Source: Erythrobacter longus
Lineage (GTDB): Bacteria > Pseudomonadota > Alphaproteobacteria > Sphingomonadales > Sphingomonadaceae
Direction of reading: 5' to 3'
DNA: 64,000 nt
NCBI RefSeq assembly: GCF_000715015.1
Contig: NZ_JMIW01000004.1
Span: 124,001 to 188,000, forward strand
Both the position numbers and the translations under genes were made by a program. The notes beneath the pieces were generated by a model. That model did not search any database, was not told the origin of the DNA, and was given only the letters and a program-made list of their open reading frames with translations. Each line of letters opens with the position of its first letter. The first letter of the stretch is position 1. This document shows, one piece after another, positions 55,414-63,684 of the stretch.

Positions 55414-58400
55414 CTATTCCGCTGCAATCGCGCCGAAATCGTCGTCGTCTTCTTCGCCGTCTCCCAGCGAAGTGAGTTCGACATTCATACCCAGCGAGCG
55501 CATTTCCTTGACGAGAACGTTGAAGCTCTCCGGAATGCCGGCCTCGAAGGTGTCGTCGCCTTTGACGATCGCCTCGTAGACTTTCGTCCGTCCGACAACA
55601 TCGTCCGACTTGACGGTGAGCATTTCCTGCAAGGTGTAAGCAGCGCCGTATGCTTGCAGTGCCCAGACCTCCATCTCACCAAAGCGCTGACCACCAAACT
55701 GCGCCTTACCACCCAGCGGCTGCTGCGTGACGAGCGAGTACGGACCGATGGACCGTGCGTGGATCTTGTCGTCGACCAGGTGGTGCAGTTTGAGCATGTA
55801 GATAATGCCCACGGTCACCTTACGGTCAAACGCTTCACCGGTGCGGCCATCATAGAGCGTCGATTGGCCCGAGCTATCGACACCGGCCTTGACCAGATAA
55901 TCGGTCACGTCGGGCTCGCGCGCACCATCAAAGACCGGCGTACCCATGGGAACACCAGCAGAGAGGTTGGTCGCCAGCTCAACGATGTTTGCGGTCGAAC
56001 GGCTTTCAAGATCCTCGAAATACTGCTCGCCGTAAACGTCTTTCAGACGATCCACGACAGCCTCTGGTGGTTTCACATCGGCGTAGTCTTCGGCTGCATT
56101 CGGATTGGCCGCTTTCCACTCTTCGAGTCTTTGGGCGATATCCATGCCAAGGCCGCGTGCTGCAAAACCAAGGTGCGTTTCGAAGATTTGACCGACGTTC
56201 ATACGCGAAGGCACGCCCAGCGGGTTGAGCACAAGGTCAACCGGCGTACCATCTTCGAGGAACGGCATGTCTTCGGCAGGAAGGATGCGCGAAATCACAC
56301 CCTTGTTACCGTGACGACCGGCCATCTTGTCGCCCGGCTGAAGCTTGCGCTTCACCGCGACGAAGACCTTGACCATTTTGAGAACGCCAGGTGCCAGCTC
56401 GTCGCCGCGCTCCAGCTTCTCTTTACGGTCGTCGAACTTGGCATCGATCAGGCCAACCGCTTCGTCATATTGCGACTTGATCGCCTCAATCTGGGTTTGG
56501 CGCGCATCGTCGGCAACCGCGAACTGGAACCATTCGTGGCGTTCAATGTCGGCCAGAACCTGCTCGGTGATTTCCTGACCCTTCTTGACGCCTTTCGGCG
56601 CGGCAGAAGCGGTCTGACCCAGCAGCATGTCTTTGAGACGGTTGTACGTCGCACGGTTCAAGATTGCGCGTTCGTCGGCGGCATCCTTGCGAAGACGTTC
56701 AATCTCTTCGTTCTGGATCGCACGGGTACGGTCGTCAATTTCGATACCGTGACGGTTGAAGACGCGAACCTCAACAACGGTCCCGGCAACACCTGGCGGC
56801 AGACGCAGCGAGGTGTCACGCACGTCAGATGCTTTCTCGCCAAAGATCGCACGAAGGAGTTTTTCCTCCGGCGTCATCGGGCTTTCACCCTTTGGCGTGA
56901 TCTTGCCTACGAGAATGTCACCGGGGTGCACTTCTGCGCCGATGTAAACAATGCCTGCCTCATCCAAGTTGCGCAGAGCTTCTTCGCCCACGTTTGGAAT
57001 ATCGCGGGTGATGTCCTCCGGGCCAAGCTTGGTGTCACGGGCCATCACTTCGAATTCATCAATGTGGATCGAGGTGAAGACGTCGTCTTTCACGATACGC
57101 TCAGAAATGAGGATCGAGTCTTCATAATTGTAGCCATTCCAAGGCATAAAGGCGACGAGGCTGTTCTTGCCCAGCGCCAGTTCGCCCAGATCCGTCGATG
57201 GACCGTCAGCGATGATATCGCCCGGCTCAATCGTCTCACCCACTTTCACCAGCGGACGCTGGTTGATGCAGGTATTCTGGTTGGAGCGTTGGAATTTCTG
57301 CAGCGTGTAGATGTCGACGCCCGATTGACCGGGTTCAACATCGCCGATTGCCCGGATCACGATACGTGTCGCATCGACCTGGTCAACGATCCCGCCGCGC
57401 CTCGCAGCAATCGCCGCGCCTGAATCGCGCGCAACGGTTTCTTCCATGCCGGTGCCGACCCACGGGGCTTCCGCTTTCACAAGCGGCACAGCCTGACGCT
57501 GCATGTTTGAACCCATCAATGCGCGGTTCGCGTCATCGTTTTCCAGGAATGGAATAAGCGAGGCCGCAACCGAGACGAGCTGTTTCGGCGAGACGTCCAT
57601 CAAAGTGATCTGGTCGCTTGGCGCCATCAGGTTGTCACCCGATTGGCGAGCAGAAATCAGCTCTTCAACAAAAGTGCCGTCATCGTTTAGTTCGGCCGAG
57701 GCCTGTGCCACGGTGTGCTTTTGCTCTTCCATCGCGGAAAGATAGATCACATCGCCGCTGACTTTATTGTCTTTGACCTGACGATAGGGCGTTTCGATAA
57801 AGCCGTATTTGTTGACCCGGCTGAAGGATGCCAGCGAGTTGATCAGACCGATGTTCGGGCCTTCCGGCGTTTCAATCGGGCAGATACGGCCATAGTGGGT
57901 TGGGTGAACGTCGCGGACTTCAAAGCCGGCACGCTCACGCGTCAAGCCGCCCGGCCCAAGCGCCGACACGCGGCGTTTGTGGGTGACTTCGGACAGCGGG
58001 TTGGTCTGGTCCATAAACTGCGACAATTGCGATGAACCAAAGAACTCACGCACTGCTGCCACAGCAGGCTTTGCGTTGATGAGGTCGTTTGGCATCACAG
58101 TCGACACATCGACCGAAGACATACGCTCTTTGACCGCACGCTCCATCCGAAGCAGGCCAACGCGGTACTGGTTTTCAAGAAGCTCACCAACCGAGCGAAC
58201 ACGCCGGTTGCCGAGGTTGTCGATGTCGTCAACTTCGCCCTTGCCGTCTTTCAGATCGACAAGCTCTTTTACAACGGCAAGGATGTCTTCCTTGCGCAGC
58301 GTCGTGACGGTGTCTTCAGCATCAAGCTCAAGACGCATATTCAGCTTCACACGGCCAACCGCGGAAAGGTCATAACGCTCACCATCGAAGAACAGGCCTT

Positions 58401-59604
58401 CGAACAGAGCTTCTGCGGTTTCCTTGGTGGGTGGTTCGCCCGGACGCATGACCTTGTAGATCGCTTCCAGACCCTCATCACGGTTTTCAGCCTTGTCGAC
58501 TTTCAACGTGTTGCGGATCCATGGGCCGGTGTTGATTTCATCGATGTCAAGCAGCTCAAGCGTGTCAAAGCCAGCTTCGTCAAGCGCCTCAATGTGCTCA
58601 AGCGTGACTTCGTCGCCTGCCTCGATATAGATTGAGCCGGTTTGCTCGTTGATCATATCGTACGCGGCATATCGGCCAACGGCTTCCTCTGTGGGAAGCA
58701 GCAAATGGGTCAAACCATCTTTCTGTGCCTTATTGGCTGCGCGTGGGGAAATTTTCTGCCCTGCTGCAAAAACCTCTTCGCCAGTCTTTGCATCGATCAG
58801 CGGGAAGGTCGGCTTCGCGCCGCGCCATGCCTCTGGCGTGTAAGGGATTTTCCAGCCGTCTTTGTCCCGCGCCCACTTCATCGTGTCATAGAAGTGGTGA
58901 AGGATGCCTTCACTATCGAGGCCAAGCGCATAAAGCAGCGCAGTCACCGGAAGCTTACGCTTACGGTCGATACGCACGTTGACGATGTCCTTGGCGTCAA
59001 ACTCAAAGTCGAGCCATGAACCACGGTATGGAATAACGCGCGCTGCAAACAGGAGCTTGCCCGATGAGTGTGTCTTACCACGGTCGTGATCGAACAGTAC
59101 GCCCGGCGAGCGGTGCATTTGCGACACGATCACGCGCTCTGTACCGTTGACGATAAAGGTGCCGTTATCAGTCATGAGCGGCATATCGCCCATGTAAACG
59201 TCCTGCTCTTTAATATCGAGAACGGAGCGGGTTTCGGTTTCCTGATCGACTTCGAACACGATCAAGCGAAGCGTTACCTTCATCGGCGCTGCGTAAGTGA
59301 TCCCGCGCTGACGACACTCGGTGGTGTCGTACTTGGGCTCTTCGAGTTCGTAGTGAACAAAGTCGAGCTCTGCGGTGCCTGCAAAATCGCGGATCGGGAA
59401 GACGCTGCGAAGGGTCTTTTCGAGACCCGAAACATAGCCCGTTTCCTTGTTCGAGCGCAGGAAGAACTCATAGCTCTCCCGCTGAACTTCGATCAGGTTG
59501 GGCATTTCGACGACTTCGTGAATATCGCCAAAAATCTTACGGATGCGCCGCTTTGCGGTACCCTTTGCCTCGCGGCTGCGGGTTGCTTTCGCTTTGGTTG
59601 CCAT
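55414..59604 (-). CDS. rpoB: DNA-directed RNA polymerase beta subunit
   Basis: 1,396 residues from ATG 59604 ('[20 protein letters not shown]'). The rifampicin region '[68 protein letters not shown]' is intact. The C terminus has '[31 protein letters not shown]'. It assembles with RpoC in core RNA polymerase. An in-frame extension to 59676 is rejected, as it lacks a binding site and the MATKAK start has GGAGG upstream. It is not preceded by rplL here but by a 400-bp gene-free region. Confidence 0.98.
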
Positions 59605-60004
59605 GGAGGAATTGTGCCTCTTTGCTTGAGCGCGCCACCGGAAAATACCGAGGCGCAAATTGGGTTCAGTCGTCACGCGAGACTGTCATGCCATATGAGA
59701 CGCAAATAAGCCGCACCCCAACATGAACCCTTCACCGGGTCCAAAATGGATGCAGCTTGATCACTCGCGAATATGGCAAAGCACCGATTTCTATTCTTGG
59801 CCCAATTCGTCGCGCATGAATCAGTCCGGCTCGAAAGCGGTGTGTGAGGGCGTATTTAGGCACAATGTTGGATTTGTAAAGGGGGCAATCGCAGCCCCAC
59901 ACCCAGCGATATTATCGTTTTTCAATATTATTGATTTACAATAAACTTCGAATCAGTCAGATGTTCCTTATTGATTTTCAATATGCACTTTAATGGAGAA
60001 CGAT
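59605..60004. other. divergent promoter region between rpoB and the DUF2975 cluster
   Basis: 400 bp with no gene. It must hold the strong promoter of rpoB, for which I cannot mark boxes with confidence. The right half turns AT-rich and holds two palindromic operators. Confidence 0.45.
59930..59982. promoter_or_regulatory. two palindromic operators, 40 bp apart
   Basis: ATTGATTTACAAT (59930-59942; arms ATTG/CAAT) and ATTGATTTTCAAT (59970-59982; arms ATTGA/TCAAT) differ at one base. Centre-to-centre spacing is 40 bp, close to four helical turns, so dimers would bind on one face. They lie just before the microprotein/DUF2975/XRE genes and could be bound by that XRE protein. Confidence 0.55.
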
Positions 60005-60136
60005 ATGAAACCGCAGCTTACAAACACATTTGCCGCAATCGCAGCCGCGATCCTTGCCTTCACCTCCATTGGGACAATCGTAACCGTTCCGCCTGCTCAT
60101 GCGAGCGGTGCAATCGCGATGGCAGAGCTTGCATGA
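60005..60136 (+). CDS. 43-aa exported peptide
   Basis: From ATG 60005 with GGAG 9 bases upstream: 'MKPQLTNTFAAIAAAILAFT' continues to 'IGTIVTVPPAHASGAIAMAELA'. This is a complete signal peptide with an 'AHA' cleavage box, leaving a mature peptide of about 11 residues, or else a retained membrane helix. The stop TGA overlaps an ATG in the frame of the next gene (ATGA, 60133-60136). It is below usual annotation size; the good binding site and clean signal peptide support it. Confidence 0.6.
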   Translation: MKPQLTNTFAAIAAAILAFTSIGTIVTVPPAHASGAIAMAELA

Positions 60137-60159
60137 GTTGGGATGAAAGGAACTCGGTT

Positions 60160-60699
60160 ATGAACGACAAACCCAATGACATCTTGCTTCTGGCAGGCAA
60201 ATTGCTCACGATCATCATGCAGTTCGCGTGTGTAATCGGTGCCGCTGTGATCGCTGGATTGGCGCTGCTCGCAATATTCGATCCAGGTTGGATCACTTCA
60301 ACGGGTTATGAGTCGAGTCTTGGTAACGCCGAGCCAATCATCGGATTGCCAATATTTTTTCTCCTGATCGCCATTTTTCTCGGGTCCGGCTTCCTATTCT
60401 TCCGGAAGCTCAAAGAGATTATCGATACCGTCGGCGAAGGCAATCCCTTTGATCTGGAGAATGCCAGTCGCCTCAATACCATGGCTTGGCTACTCTTAGT
60501 GATGCAGTTCCTCGTCATGCCAGCGACTTTGCTTGGCACGTTCCTGGCCCCTTGGATTAATGCGCGGGAGGATATGTCAATGACCATTGAAATGGGGCCA
60601 GACGTGGAAGGTATCCTCATGGTTATCATTCTCTTCATCCTTGCCCGTGTGTTCAAACACGGCGCTGCGATGCGTGAAGATCTGGAAGGCACGGTCTAA
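60160..60699 (+). CDS. DUF2975 family membrane protein
   Basis: 179 residues from ATG 60160 ('MNDKPNDILLLAGKLLTII'), with AAGGAA upstream; an alternative in-frame ATG at 60133 overlaps the stop of the 43-aa gene. Four transmembrane helices are seen: 'LTIIMQFACVIGAAVIAGLALLAI', 'IIGLPIFFLLIAIFLGSGFLFF', 'TMAWLLLVMQFLVMPATLLGTFL' and 'GILMVIILFILARVFKHGAAMRED', with the family's 'G.PF...N..RL..MAW' motif ('GEGNPFDLENASRLNTMAW'). DUF2975 genes are nearly always next to a YozG-like XRE regulator, as here. Function is unknown. Confidence 0.85.
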   Translation: MNDKPNDILLLAGKLLTIIMQFACVIGAAVIAGLALLAIFDPGWITSTGYESSLGNAEPIIGLPIFFLLIAIFLGSGFLFFRKLKEIIDTVGEGNPFDLENASRLNTMAWLLLVMQFLVMPATLLGTFLAPWINAREDMSMTIEMGPDVEGILMVIILFILARVFKHGAAMREDLEGTV

Positions 60700-60728
60700 T
60701 GCCAGCCGATGACGAAGGAGCCGTAATC

Positions 60729-60926
60729 ATGGTCAAGCTAGATGACATACTACACGACCGGCGCATGACGCTGACCGAACTGGCCGAGCGGGTGGGCCTC
60801 ACCCTTGCCAATCTCTCGATCCTGAAAACCGGCAAGGCCAAAGCCATCCGTTTTACGACGCTCGCCGCAATATGCCGGGAACTGAATTGCCAACCCGGCG
60901 ACCTTTTGGAGTACCAGGACAAGTAG
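60729..60926 (+). CDS. YozG-like XRE-family transcriptional regulator
   Basis: 65 residues from ATG 60729 with GGAG upstream; the ATG at 60699, overlapping the DUF2975 stop (TAATG), would give 75. The sequence is nearly all helix-turn-helix: 'VKLDDILHDRRMTLTELAERVGLTLANLSILKTGKAKAIRFTTLAAICRELNCQPGDLLEY', the compact YozG type. It likely represses its own cluster via the two ATTGA-TCAAT operators upstream. Confidence 0.88.
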   Translation: MVKLDDILHDRRMTLTELAERVGLTLANLSILKTGKAKAIRFTTLAAICRELNCQPGDLLEYQDK

Positions 60927-60959
60927 GCATCAATCGCCCAATCGCTTTACGCAAATTGC

Positions 60960-61227
60960 TTGACTCTCGGGGTGCGCATAGTAATGGCGCGCCTCGACCT
61001 CTTTACCGGAGGTCATCCGTCCGAGACAGTTGGTGAGAGGAATTTGCCTCTCTTAATTTCCAGCCTAGACGGGGAAAAGAGATTTCGCAGCTTAGCTGCA
61101 AGCGAGCCTTAGGGCTCACCCTCCTTCCCCATTGATGGACTTGATCTGTGTCGATGAACGGCATGGATTGATTTGAGCCGGTCGCGCGGGCCTTAAGCCC
61201 TCGCGGCCATAGTGAAGGAGCAAATGC
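60960..61227 (+). promoter_or_regulatory. promoter and long 5' leader of rplJ
   Basis: A 301-bp gap before rplJ. TTGACT (60960-60965) and TAATGG (60982-60987) are a possible promoter with 16-bp spacing. The leader has a hairpin GAGAGG/CCTCTC (61035-61052) preceded by GAGACAGTTGGTGA, and other GC-rich paired segments. L10-L12 binding to its own leader is known in many bacteria; this leader is long enough for that. Confidence 0.45.
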
Positions 61228-61743
61228 ATGGATCGTTCGCAAAAAGCCGATGCGGTTGCGCAGCTCTCGCAAGTCTTCAAAGAGGTCGGCGTGGTGGTTG
61301 TCACCCGCAACCTCGGCCTGACGGTGGACCAGTCCACCGATCTTCGGGGCAAGATGCGCGAAGTTGGTGCAACTTATAAGGTTGCGAAGAACCGTCTTGC
61401 AAAGCTCGCCCTGAAAGACACCGATTACGTTGGCCTTGAGGAATACCTCACCGGTCCAACCGCGCTTGCATGGTCGCAAGACCCTGTGGCGGCAGCCAAG
61501 GCTGCTGTTGAGTTCGCAAAGTCGAACGACAAGCTGGAAATCGTCGGTGGCTCGATGGGCAGTCAGGTGCTCGACGAAGCCGGGATCAAGGCGCTTGCCT
61601 CGATGCCAAGCCTCGACGAGCTGCGTGGCACGATTGTTGGCCTTGTCAACGCACCTGCGACGAAGATCGCCCAGGTTGCAACGGCACCAGCCAACAAGCT
61701 GGCCCGTGTCATTGGCGCATATGCCGCCAAAGACGCCGCTTAA
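61228..61743 (+). CDS. rplJ: 50S ribosomal protein L10
   Basis: 171 residues ('[62 protein letters not shown]'), a typical L10. It forms the base of the L7/L12 stalk. GAAGGAG lies before the start. L10 usually opens an rplJ-rplL-rpoB-rpoC operon; here rplL follows but rpoBC are elsewhere on the other strand. Confidence 0.97.
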
Positions 61744-62319: not shown

Positions 62320-63684
62320 TTAACGCGGGATTTGCTCGATCGCTGTCAGTTCAGAGCCCAAGGTCGGGACCGAAATCTGATCGACCTGCACCTTTTTCGC
62401 ATCGGGCGCGTCCTGGTAATCGATCCCGAACTCCACCTCGTCATAAGCAGGGTTATAACTCACTGGAATGCCAGCGGCTTGCAGCTGCGCCAAGGTCACG
62501 AAGCTATCGATTGCCGCCCCTTGCGTAATGCTTGCAAATTCCGTCTTGCTGAATTGTTCGCGCATCATATTGGCAACCGAGCGAAGGCGGATTGCAATCG
62601 TGCCGTCGCGCTGTTGGAAATCGACGCTGCCGGTAAGAACGCCGTTTACCCGCGCATCAAGCCTGGTCTTGGGGACCAGCATGGCCTGCGCGGCTGCTGC
62701 CCCGCTTACCTCAACAGGCGGCGCCCCTACAGGGATGGCGCGGCGTACTTCATCGACGCCTACTGGCAGCGACGTAGGGCTGCGTTCAGGCGCGACCGGG
62801 AGCGATCCTCGCACCGCGGCGGAGGCATCAATTGCCCCCGCAAAAGCGGCCTCAACCGAACGAGAGGCAATCGCATCGGTGCGCGCAGATGATGAATTAA
62901 GGGCAAGAGATTGACCCGACCTCCCTACATTTTCAGGCCCTACATTTTTAGGCCCTACATTTTCAGGCCCTACATTTTCAGGAGTTGCACGAACCACAGC
63001 GTTCAGACCCGTGATCTGCTCTATCGCGACAGTGCGGGTCGCAATGGCAGAGCTTCGAGCCCGCGTAACCGGCGAGGGTCCATCCGGCCGACCCGGCGGC
63101 ACAAGTGCGGTAAGGGTCGAAGGCATTGCAACGCTTGCGAAGGCAAGGTCGAATTCTTGCGATCCGGAGCTAAGGACAGCCACCGGCAATTCGCGGTCAA
63201 AATTGCTGAGCTGCGGGGAACTGCCGAATGTCAGAGAGGTATCTTGCTCATCAAGAGGTTCGGCATAAAGCAGGGCAGTTATCGGGCGACGAGGCGCAAA
63301 AGCCTTGGCCGGTCGCGCCGTCCCGCCCGGTGCAAATCGATCTGGTGCAAATCGATCAGGCGCAAATTTGTCGGTGCCCCCTTCGGCTTCAGGCGTGACC
63401 GTCCCAATTCCAAAAGAGGATTCTCCGATCGCGCCGACCATCGCGTCGAGTGAAAGGTTAGGCACAGCGACCGCGACCGCCACGGCTGCTGAGCCAAATG
63501 CGAGCCGGATTTTGTTAAGCGACTTGTTAGCCGGAGGACCATACAGGCTGGCTGCGATTGCCGCCTTCTCTGGTGCGGTCAAAGGGTCAGGCATAAAGCG
63601 GGCATGGGGTAGCCAATCGCTTTGCGCGACCTGCATGCCAGCCCCTTTAACAGCTATGTCAGCTATGCCGTTATCCCTGCTCAA
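62320..63684 (-). CDS. low-complexity hypothetical protein with short tandem repeats (454 aa)
   Basis: 454 residues. A hydrophobic segment 'IRLAFGSAAVAVAVAVPNLSL' (about 59-79) may anchor it in the membrane. A repetitive Ala/Pro/Ser-rich middle holds three DRFAP-like units and four ENVGP units, both encoded by perfect 15-bp tandem repeats. The C-terminal 120 residues look folded: 'DARVNGVLTGSVDFQQRDGTIAIRLRSVANMMREQF...AGIPVSYNPAYDEVEFGID'. I do not recognise the family. Repeat number probably varies between strains. The start used is 63684; Met codons at 63636 and 63594 are alternatives. Confidence 0.6.
   Translation of the reverse strand: MSRDNGIADIAVKGAGMQVAQSDWLPHARFMPDPLTAPEKAAIAASLYGPPANKSLNKIRLAFGSAAVAVAVAVPNLSLDAMVGAIGESSFGIGTVTPEAEGGTDKFAPDRFAPDRFAPGGTARPAKAFAPRRPITALLYAEPLDEQDTSLTFGSSPQLSNFDRELPVAVLSSGSQEFDLAFASVAMPSTLTALVPPGRPDGPSPVTRARSSAIATRTVAIEQITGLNAVVRATPENVGPENVGPKNVGPENVGRSGQSLALNSSSARTDAIASRSVEAAFAGAIDASAAVRGSLPVAPERSPTSLPVGVDEVRRAIPVGAPPVEVSGAAAAQAMLVPKTRLDARVNGVLTGSVDFQQRDGTIAIRLRSVANMMREQFSKTEFASITQGAAIDSFVTLAQLQAAGIPVSYNPAYDEVEFGIDYQDAPDAKKVQVDQISVPTLGSELTAIEQIPR
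62923..62982. repeat. four tandem copies of a 15-bp unit
   Basis: CCCTACATTTTCAGG at 62923, 62938 (one change), 62953 and 62968, in frame within the 454-aa gene where each encodes ENVGP or KNVGP on the minus strand. Confidence 0.9.
63329..63373. repeat. three tandem copies of a 15-bp unit
   Basis: GGTGCAAATCGATCT at 63329, GGTGCAAATCGATCA at 63344 and the diverged GGCGCAAATTTGTCG at 63359. In frame on the minus strand, each encodes a DRFAP/DKFAP unit. Confidence 0.8.

Follow-up and report, generated by a model that had tools for sequence, protein, structure and literature searches.

A small hydrophobic microprotein conserved with a DUF2975-XRE gene pair in Erythrobacter longus and its relatives, and its possible part in a membrane-sensor operon

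In the genome of Erythrobacter longus (3,602,162 bases in 14 contigs), three plus-strand genes encoding successively a hydrophobic microprotein, a DUF2975 protein and a small XRE regulator lie between rpoB and rplJ, within the 64,000-nucleotide stretch that was analysed as a whole (hereafter the window; Table 1). Comparison of sequences from relatives shows an operon of these genes, a microprotein that is a gene in its own right, and palindromic candidate operators that are restricted to the locus and absent with it. What is new here is the microprotein, tied by these comparisons to an otherwise known, uncharacterised DUF2975-XRE pair. Globally, the locus can be read as an autoregulated membrane-sensor operon with a one-helix microprotein partner, a reading whose chances we consider to be about even.

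Table 1. Features of the locus and its flanks (positions in the window)
Feature	Position	Strand	Remarks
rpoB	55414-59604	minus	
Palindrome O1	59912..59928		TTATCG-N5-CAATAT (TTATCGTTTTTCAATAT); upstream of the -35-like element; same place in relatives
Palindrome O2	59928..59944		TTATTG-N5-CAATAA (TTATTGATTTACAATAA); perfect 6-bp arms; overlaps the -35-like hexamer
-35-like hexamer	59935..59940	plus	TTTACA; inside O2; inferred
-10-like position	59958..59963	plus	CAGATG; weak; 17 nt after the -35; inferred
Palindrome O3	59968..59984		TTATTG-N5-CAATAT (TTATTGATTTTCAATAT); near the presumed transcription start
Hydrophobic microprotein	60005-60136	plus	43 codons + TGA; GGAG at 59995-59998; conserved coding frame
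DUF2975 four-helix membrane protein	60160-60699	plus	179 aa; PF11188; alternative start 60133
XRE/HTH_26 regulator	60729-60926	plus	65 aa; PF13443; alternative start 60699
rplJ	starts 61228	plus	
rplL	starts 61815	plus	

The microprotein frame, which contains a further in-frame ATG at 59993, is intact at 28 of the 30 same-genus loci. At these loci, differences are distributed over the three codon positions as 0.37/0.23/0.55 and the pooled pN/pS is 0.51; some residues are invariant among the family rows. Such comparisons indicate that the microprotein is a real gene under amino-acid constraint. The 43-aa product matches no model of Pfam, NCBIfam, PHROG or PADLOC, and only one of the 29 family members gives a weak match, to Ycf9 (0.047). 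No description was found in the open literature, which covers few subscription papers and preprints. The E. longus genome carries a single confident copy. Damaged loci also occur: the microprotein is degraded in L027 and has a broken frame close to the start in L028, while the DUF2975 gene of L068 is split over two frames; this may be real decay or assembly error.

Sequences closely related to the microprotein occur mostly in records of Erythrobacter, and also of Porphyrobacter and Altererythrobacter. The same-genus profile finds matches at E <= 0.01 in 56 of 298 genomes of the family. A family profile was then made with rows that the microprotein alone had initially brought up, all 29 of which later proved to read microprotein-DUF2975-XRE; this order holds at every family locus read besides that of E. 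longus (29/29) and at all 17 named loci. Conservation of the peptide with the pair, a check proposed with the original prediction, was borne out by this profile: its 63 matches at E <= 2.9e-4 in the 298 genomes all immediately precede a DUF2975 match of the same orientation. Among the weaker matches listed, 87 in number (E 8e-4 to 0.08), 10 lie upstream of DUF2975 and 77 do not. These data support the view that the predicted microprotein, DUF2975 and XRE genes form one evolutionary unit.

The gap between microprotein and DUF2975 ranges from 16 to 249 nt among the 63 matches, the four largest values being measured from the first copy where genus g33 has its microprotein doubled; apart from these first copies, it is 16-88 nt. 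In this genome, an in-frame ATG at 60133 overlaps the microprotein stop (ATGA, 60133-60136). The DUF2975 proteins of relatives align from 60160, and this overlap is therefore not a conserved feature. The overlap, together with the constant position of the microprotein directly upstream of DUF2975, would suit a leader ORF whose translation merely couples or times that of DUF2975 and whose sequence matters little. However, such a leader should not display amino-acid constraint and invariant residues, nor does it fit the tandem double microproteins of one genus or the gaps that replace the overlap elsewhere, so that we regard this explanation as very improbable. The expectation that gene ends overlap or nearly overlap holds for E. 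longus, given the alternative starts at 60133 and 60699. Two tandem microprotein ORFs precede DUF2975 in L050-L052 and L054 (genus g33), and also in L129.

The microprotein is not a constant companion of the pair. DUF2975 occurs at 138 places in 134 of the 298 family genomes, and a recognised microprotein precedes it at 69 of these places, 10 of them by weak matches. Reading of 68 of the remaining 69 places revealed an ORF of the same kind, by fixed criteria, at 18 (versus 2 of 1360 shuffled controls). After further exclusion of L129 (two ORFs by eye), two places that are the second members of tandem DUF2975 pairs, a place cut by a contig end and a fragment, 45 of the 138 places are left without a microprotein, which is therefore accessory at most. 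On a DUF2975 tree, microprotein presence requires 7 changes versus a shuffled mean of 32; this tree was built by a quick method, has long branches and includes 97 proteins (7 of the 30 same-genus, 27 of the 29 family and 63 of the 68 further places). At two of the loci, L061 (G372) and L163 (G271), DUF2975 genes stand in tandem within a single operon; one XRE gene was seen in L061. Another genome (G327) carries two separate DUF2975 loci, L126 and L130, each with its own microprotein-like ORF.

Beyond the family, the pair is found without this partner. Class-wide, the XRE profile matches at 30 of 30 DUF2975 loci and the microprotein profile at 2 of 30, both from the same genus; the 28 loci from elsewhere in the class give zero microprotein matches and 28 XRE matches. 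Furthermore, among 247 genomes sampled from the order, the 45 that give a microprotein match all belong to the same family. Among the samples searched, sequences recognisable as the microprotein were found only in this family; genome searches score limited numbers of candidates, so that a missing match is not proof of absence. In L088 (G444), which belongs to a different family within the class, DUF2975-XRE is preceded by a 38-aa hydrophobic ORF without the VTVP...LA form, perhaps an unrelated analogue.

Sequence comparison also indicates that the address of the operon between rpoB and rplJ is conserved, in many genera. Indeed, the stretch read includes rpoB or rplJ at 29 of the 30 same-genus loci, at 20 of the 29 from the family (1.5-kb flanks) and at all 17 named loci (flanks of up to 4 kb). 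The neighbouring 'polymerase' and 'stalk' operons named in the original prediction correspond to rpoB on the minus strand and rplJ-rplL, respectively. A link with growth had been suggested from this location; this suggestion is not supported, since genomes devoid of the operon still keep rplJ (8/8) and usually a nearby rpoB (within the stretch in 6/8). These operon-free genomes come from a single-query DUF2975 search of 100 relatives (61 of the same genus, 39 of other genera), which gave a match in 48 including E. longus itself, all within the genus (0/39 in other genera). Within the genus, 13 genomes gave no match; eight of them were examined, and the surroundings of rplJ contain no palindrome, microprotein or DUF2975 in any of the eight. 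The palindromes and XRE thus appear to go together, their joint absence being what a regulator and its sites should show. In one of the eight, L183 (G055), a 26-codon XRE relic lies upstream of rplJ with no DUF2975 match, as in a decaying locus.

This distribution bears on the possibility of a toxin-immunity unit, in which the microprotein would be membrane-active, DUF2975 would protect and XRE would autorepress. The gene order and sizes recall such units and, in the sections of Makarova et al. 2009 (PMC2701414) that bear on the matter, a reply to a reviewer mentions pairs of a membrane protein and Xre as possible new toxin-antitoxin systems. The same sections list in Table 2 a 'YoaS-like, a membrane protein, likely permease' beside Xre in 32 cases, and leave these YoaS-like/Xre pairs out of the toxin-antitoxin list. 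A toxin-immunity unit is distinctly unlikely here in view of the conserved chromosomal address in many genera, the many DUF2975-XRE loci without microprotein and the near lack of plasmid or phage matches: one partial match was obtained among 72,556 plasmid records and none in a phage search for the locus. PADLOC returned only weak generic HTH matches on the locus.

The pair itself is of the YoaS-YozG type, in which a small HTH_26 regulator comes after a DUF2975 membrane protein, and both Pfam families match here. The original description of DUF2975-XRE pairs as common and undefined was apt: besides the 32 YoaS-like/Xre cases of Makarova et al. 2009, DUF2975 is found in 31 of 192 genomes sampled from the class and in 5 of 14 control genomes, and is hardly described in the open literature. 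An HTH_26-type gene directly follows DUF2975 in the window (60699/60729) and at all 29 family loci. Whereas the YoaS-YozG type pair consists of two genes, the operon of E. longus inserts a third, the microprotein gene, between the operators and DUF2975 and, beyond this, displays three defined palindromes.

Two ATTGA-TCAAT palindromes exactly 40 bp apart had been predicted; the pair exists, at 59928 and 59968, but the count of two does not stand, a third being located 16 bp upstream at 59912. The strict pattern TTATYGN5CRATAW occurs at three places in the 3.60-Mb genome, all at the locus, and the reversed-pattern control at none. A looser core, TATYGN5CRATA, occurs at 16 places versus 2 for the control. 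The core palindrome is thus found at 13 places outside the locus, which makes further targets possible; at 10 of these 13, the 5-base core has at least 3 G or C. One of the 13 lies at 1531-1545 of the window (TATTGCTTAACAATA).

In relatives, 59 loci (30 same-genus and 29 family, from 58 genomes, G019 being counted in both sets; microprotein starts estimated for the family set, L027 and L028) contain 163 core sites in the 300 nt upstream of the microprotein versus a single one in the other 174.5 kb; shuffled upstream stretches would yield about 0.2. An O2-like site is present at 58 of the 59 loci and includes TTGAC at 57 of these 58, the exception being the E. longus window with its TTTACA; as the O2 pattern itself demands TT[G/T]AC, this count opposes G to T only. 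The -10-like position starts with T in 26 of 29 and has A second in 22 of 29 same-genus rows (23/29 and 24/29, respectively, in family rows), versus CA in the window, and it is covered by O3 in many other genera. The -35 and -10 of the window itself are weak, and a strict sigma-70 scan found no promoter. A palindrome also lies at most 125 nt upstream of the DUF2975 match at 43 of the 45 microprotein-free family places. The candidate operators would therefore belong to the DUF2975-XRE pair, the microprotein being an extra gene between these operators and DUF2975. One palindrome is present at 9 of the 28 DUF2975 loci from other orders or families of the class.

The assignment of the regulator to the XRE class, in a pair of the YoaS-YozG kind, is confirmed by a PF13443 HTH_26 match far above the curated cut-off (E 5.7e-24, 84.6 bits versus 22). 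Its gene has an ATG at 60699 that overlaps the DUF2975 stop, and AAGGAG precedes the ATG at 60729. The protein is nearly invariant (84% mean column identity in 18 rows). The only solved structure that it matches at E <= 0.001 is a VanU-type regulator (PDB 3tyr, E 1.4e-6); it scores 36.4 bits with the VanU model NF000090 of NCBIfam, below the curated cut-off of 150. The four-helix DUF2975 protein was also rightly predicted, with a PF11188 match above the cut-off (E 8.3e-9, 35.9 bits versus 27) and an AlphaFold2 model that displays four long helices (mean pLDDT 84). Foldseek found no match to this model at E <= 0.001 and VIA-align gave only helix bundles, a kind of match against which its own note warns; no fold relative is put forward.

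Conservation of DUF2975 is concentrated in the loop between helices 2 and 3 (3.25 bits) and in the C-tail (3.90 bits), versus 1.71 and 1.86 bits in the other two loops. The conserved motifs are ..PF...N..RL in the loop and RVF.HGAAMREDLEGTV in the C-tail. Lysine and arginine (3.1 in the C-tail, 0.3 in the third loop, 1.3 and 1.5 in the first two) favour a cytoplasmic C-tail and an outer third loop; this charge argument is modest, since the value for loop 1 is about equal to that for the cytoplasmic loop.

The microprotein also displays an uneven conservation. Its hydrophobic segment is more conserved than its tail and, over residues 8-28, conservation follows a periodicity of about 100 degrees (p 0.0004, and 0.00005-0.0015 when five ranges are compared; weaker, p 0.01, within same-genus rows alone). 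One helix face holds A10, A14, I/L17, S21, I/V25 and V28. LA closes the variable tail in 22 of the 29 family rows, in 24 of the 28 same-genus rows and in 13 of the 18 divergent rows; we take this end to be a possible recognition end, for example for a PDZ-domain protease. The microprotein was originally described as a 43-aa exported peptide. Cleavage after V-P-P-A-x-A would then release a tail of 8-15 residues ending in -LA, which would address DUF2975 from outside the membrane and serve as a signal or self-marker. Most same-genus rows do end their conserved part with an A-x-A-like motif, after the hydrophobic core, and the variable tail has a conserved end, but several family rows lack a clear A-x-A and the most conserved part is the hydrophobic segment, with its single conserved face. 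We consider such a peptide signal unlikely. The 43-aa hydrophobic frame is real, and the conserved face and the relatives without a clear A-x-A suit a one-helix membrane microprotein no less than an exported peptide. A membrane helix that packs on DUF2975 is favoured since a discarded signal peptide needs no conserved face.

In the membrane-sensor reading, XRE would bind O1-O3 across the promoter and thereby repress the operon that encodes it, a geometry suggested by the position of the sites. DUF2975 would be an inner-membrane sensor of four helices with both ends predicted to be cytoplasmic, and might control XRE through its conserved cytoplasmic loop and C-tail; it would probably retain XRE at the membrane in response to a membrane or periplasmic cue. 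Contact of XRE with the cytoplasmic face of DUF2975 would be the simplest reading of these conserved regions. The microprotein is predicted to form one helix, N-in/C-out, whose conserved small-residue face could pack on DUF2975, followed by a short variable tail that would lie in the periplasm and ends in -LA. As a product of the same self-limited transcript, the microprotein might tune or report the state sensed by DUF2975. We propose only tentatively that it is a dedicated membrane ligand of DUF2975, whose packing and protease-accessible periplasmic -LA tail set the capture of XRE.

A comparable way of working is described, in the passages of PMC1626106 devoted to it, for SdpC-SdpI-SdpR of Bacillus subtilis, which associates a small ligand (SdpC, a secreted 5-kDa toxin), a polytopic membrane protein and an autorepressor sequestered at the membrane. 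The likeness concerns the proposed way of working; in contrast to SdpC, the microprotein is not known to be toxic. No SdpI-family Pfam match is obtained with DUF2975 at E <= 1, only DUF2975 itself and a sub-threshold unrelated model being listed. The regulators also differ, SdpR being ArsR-like whereas that of E. longus belongs to HTH_26. If true, the membrane-sensor reading would describe a three-part self-limiting membrane relay and give a first function to DUF2975, a domain that is widespread yet hardly described. Natural loci with and without the microprotein, together with candidate operators defined to the base, offer a direct route to DUF2975 sensing and to its action on a small repressor.

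Two minor observations concern the surroundings. A search of 59500-61400 for RNA families gave a single match, far below the gathering score. Downstream of rplL, the window carries on the minus strand (62320-63684) a 454-codon ORF with short FAPDR-like and ENVGP-like repeats.
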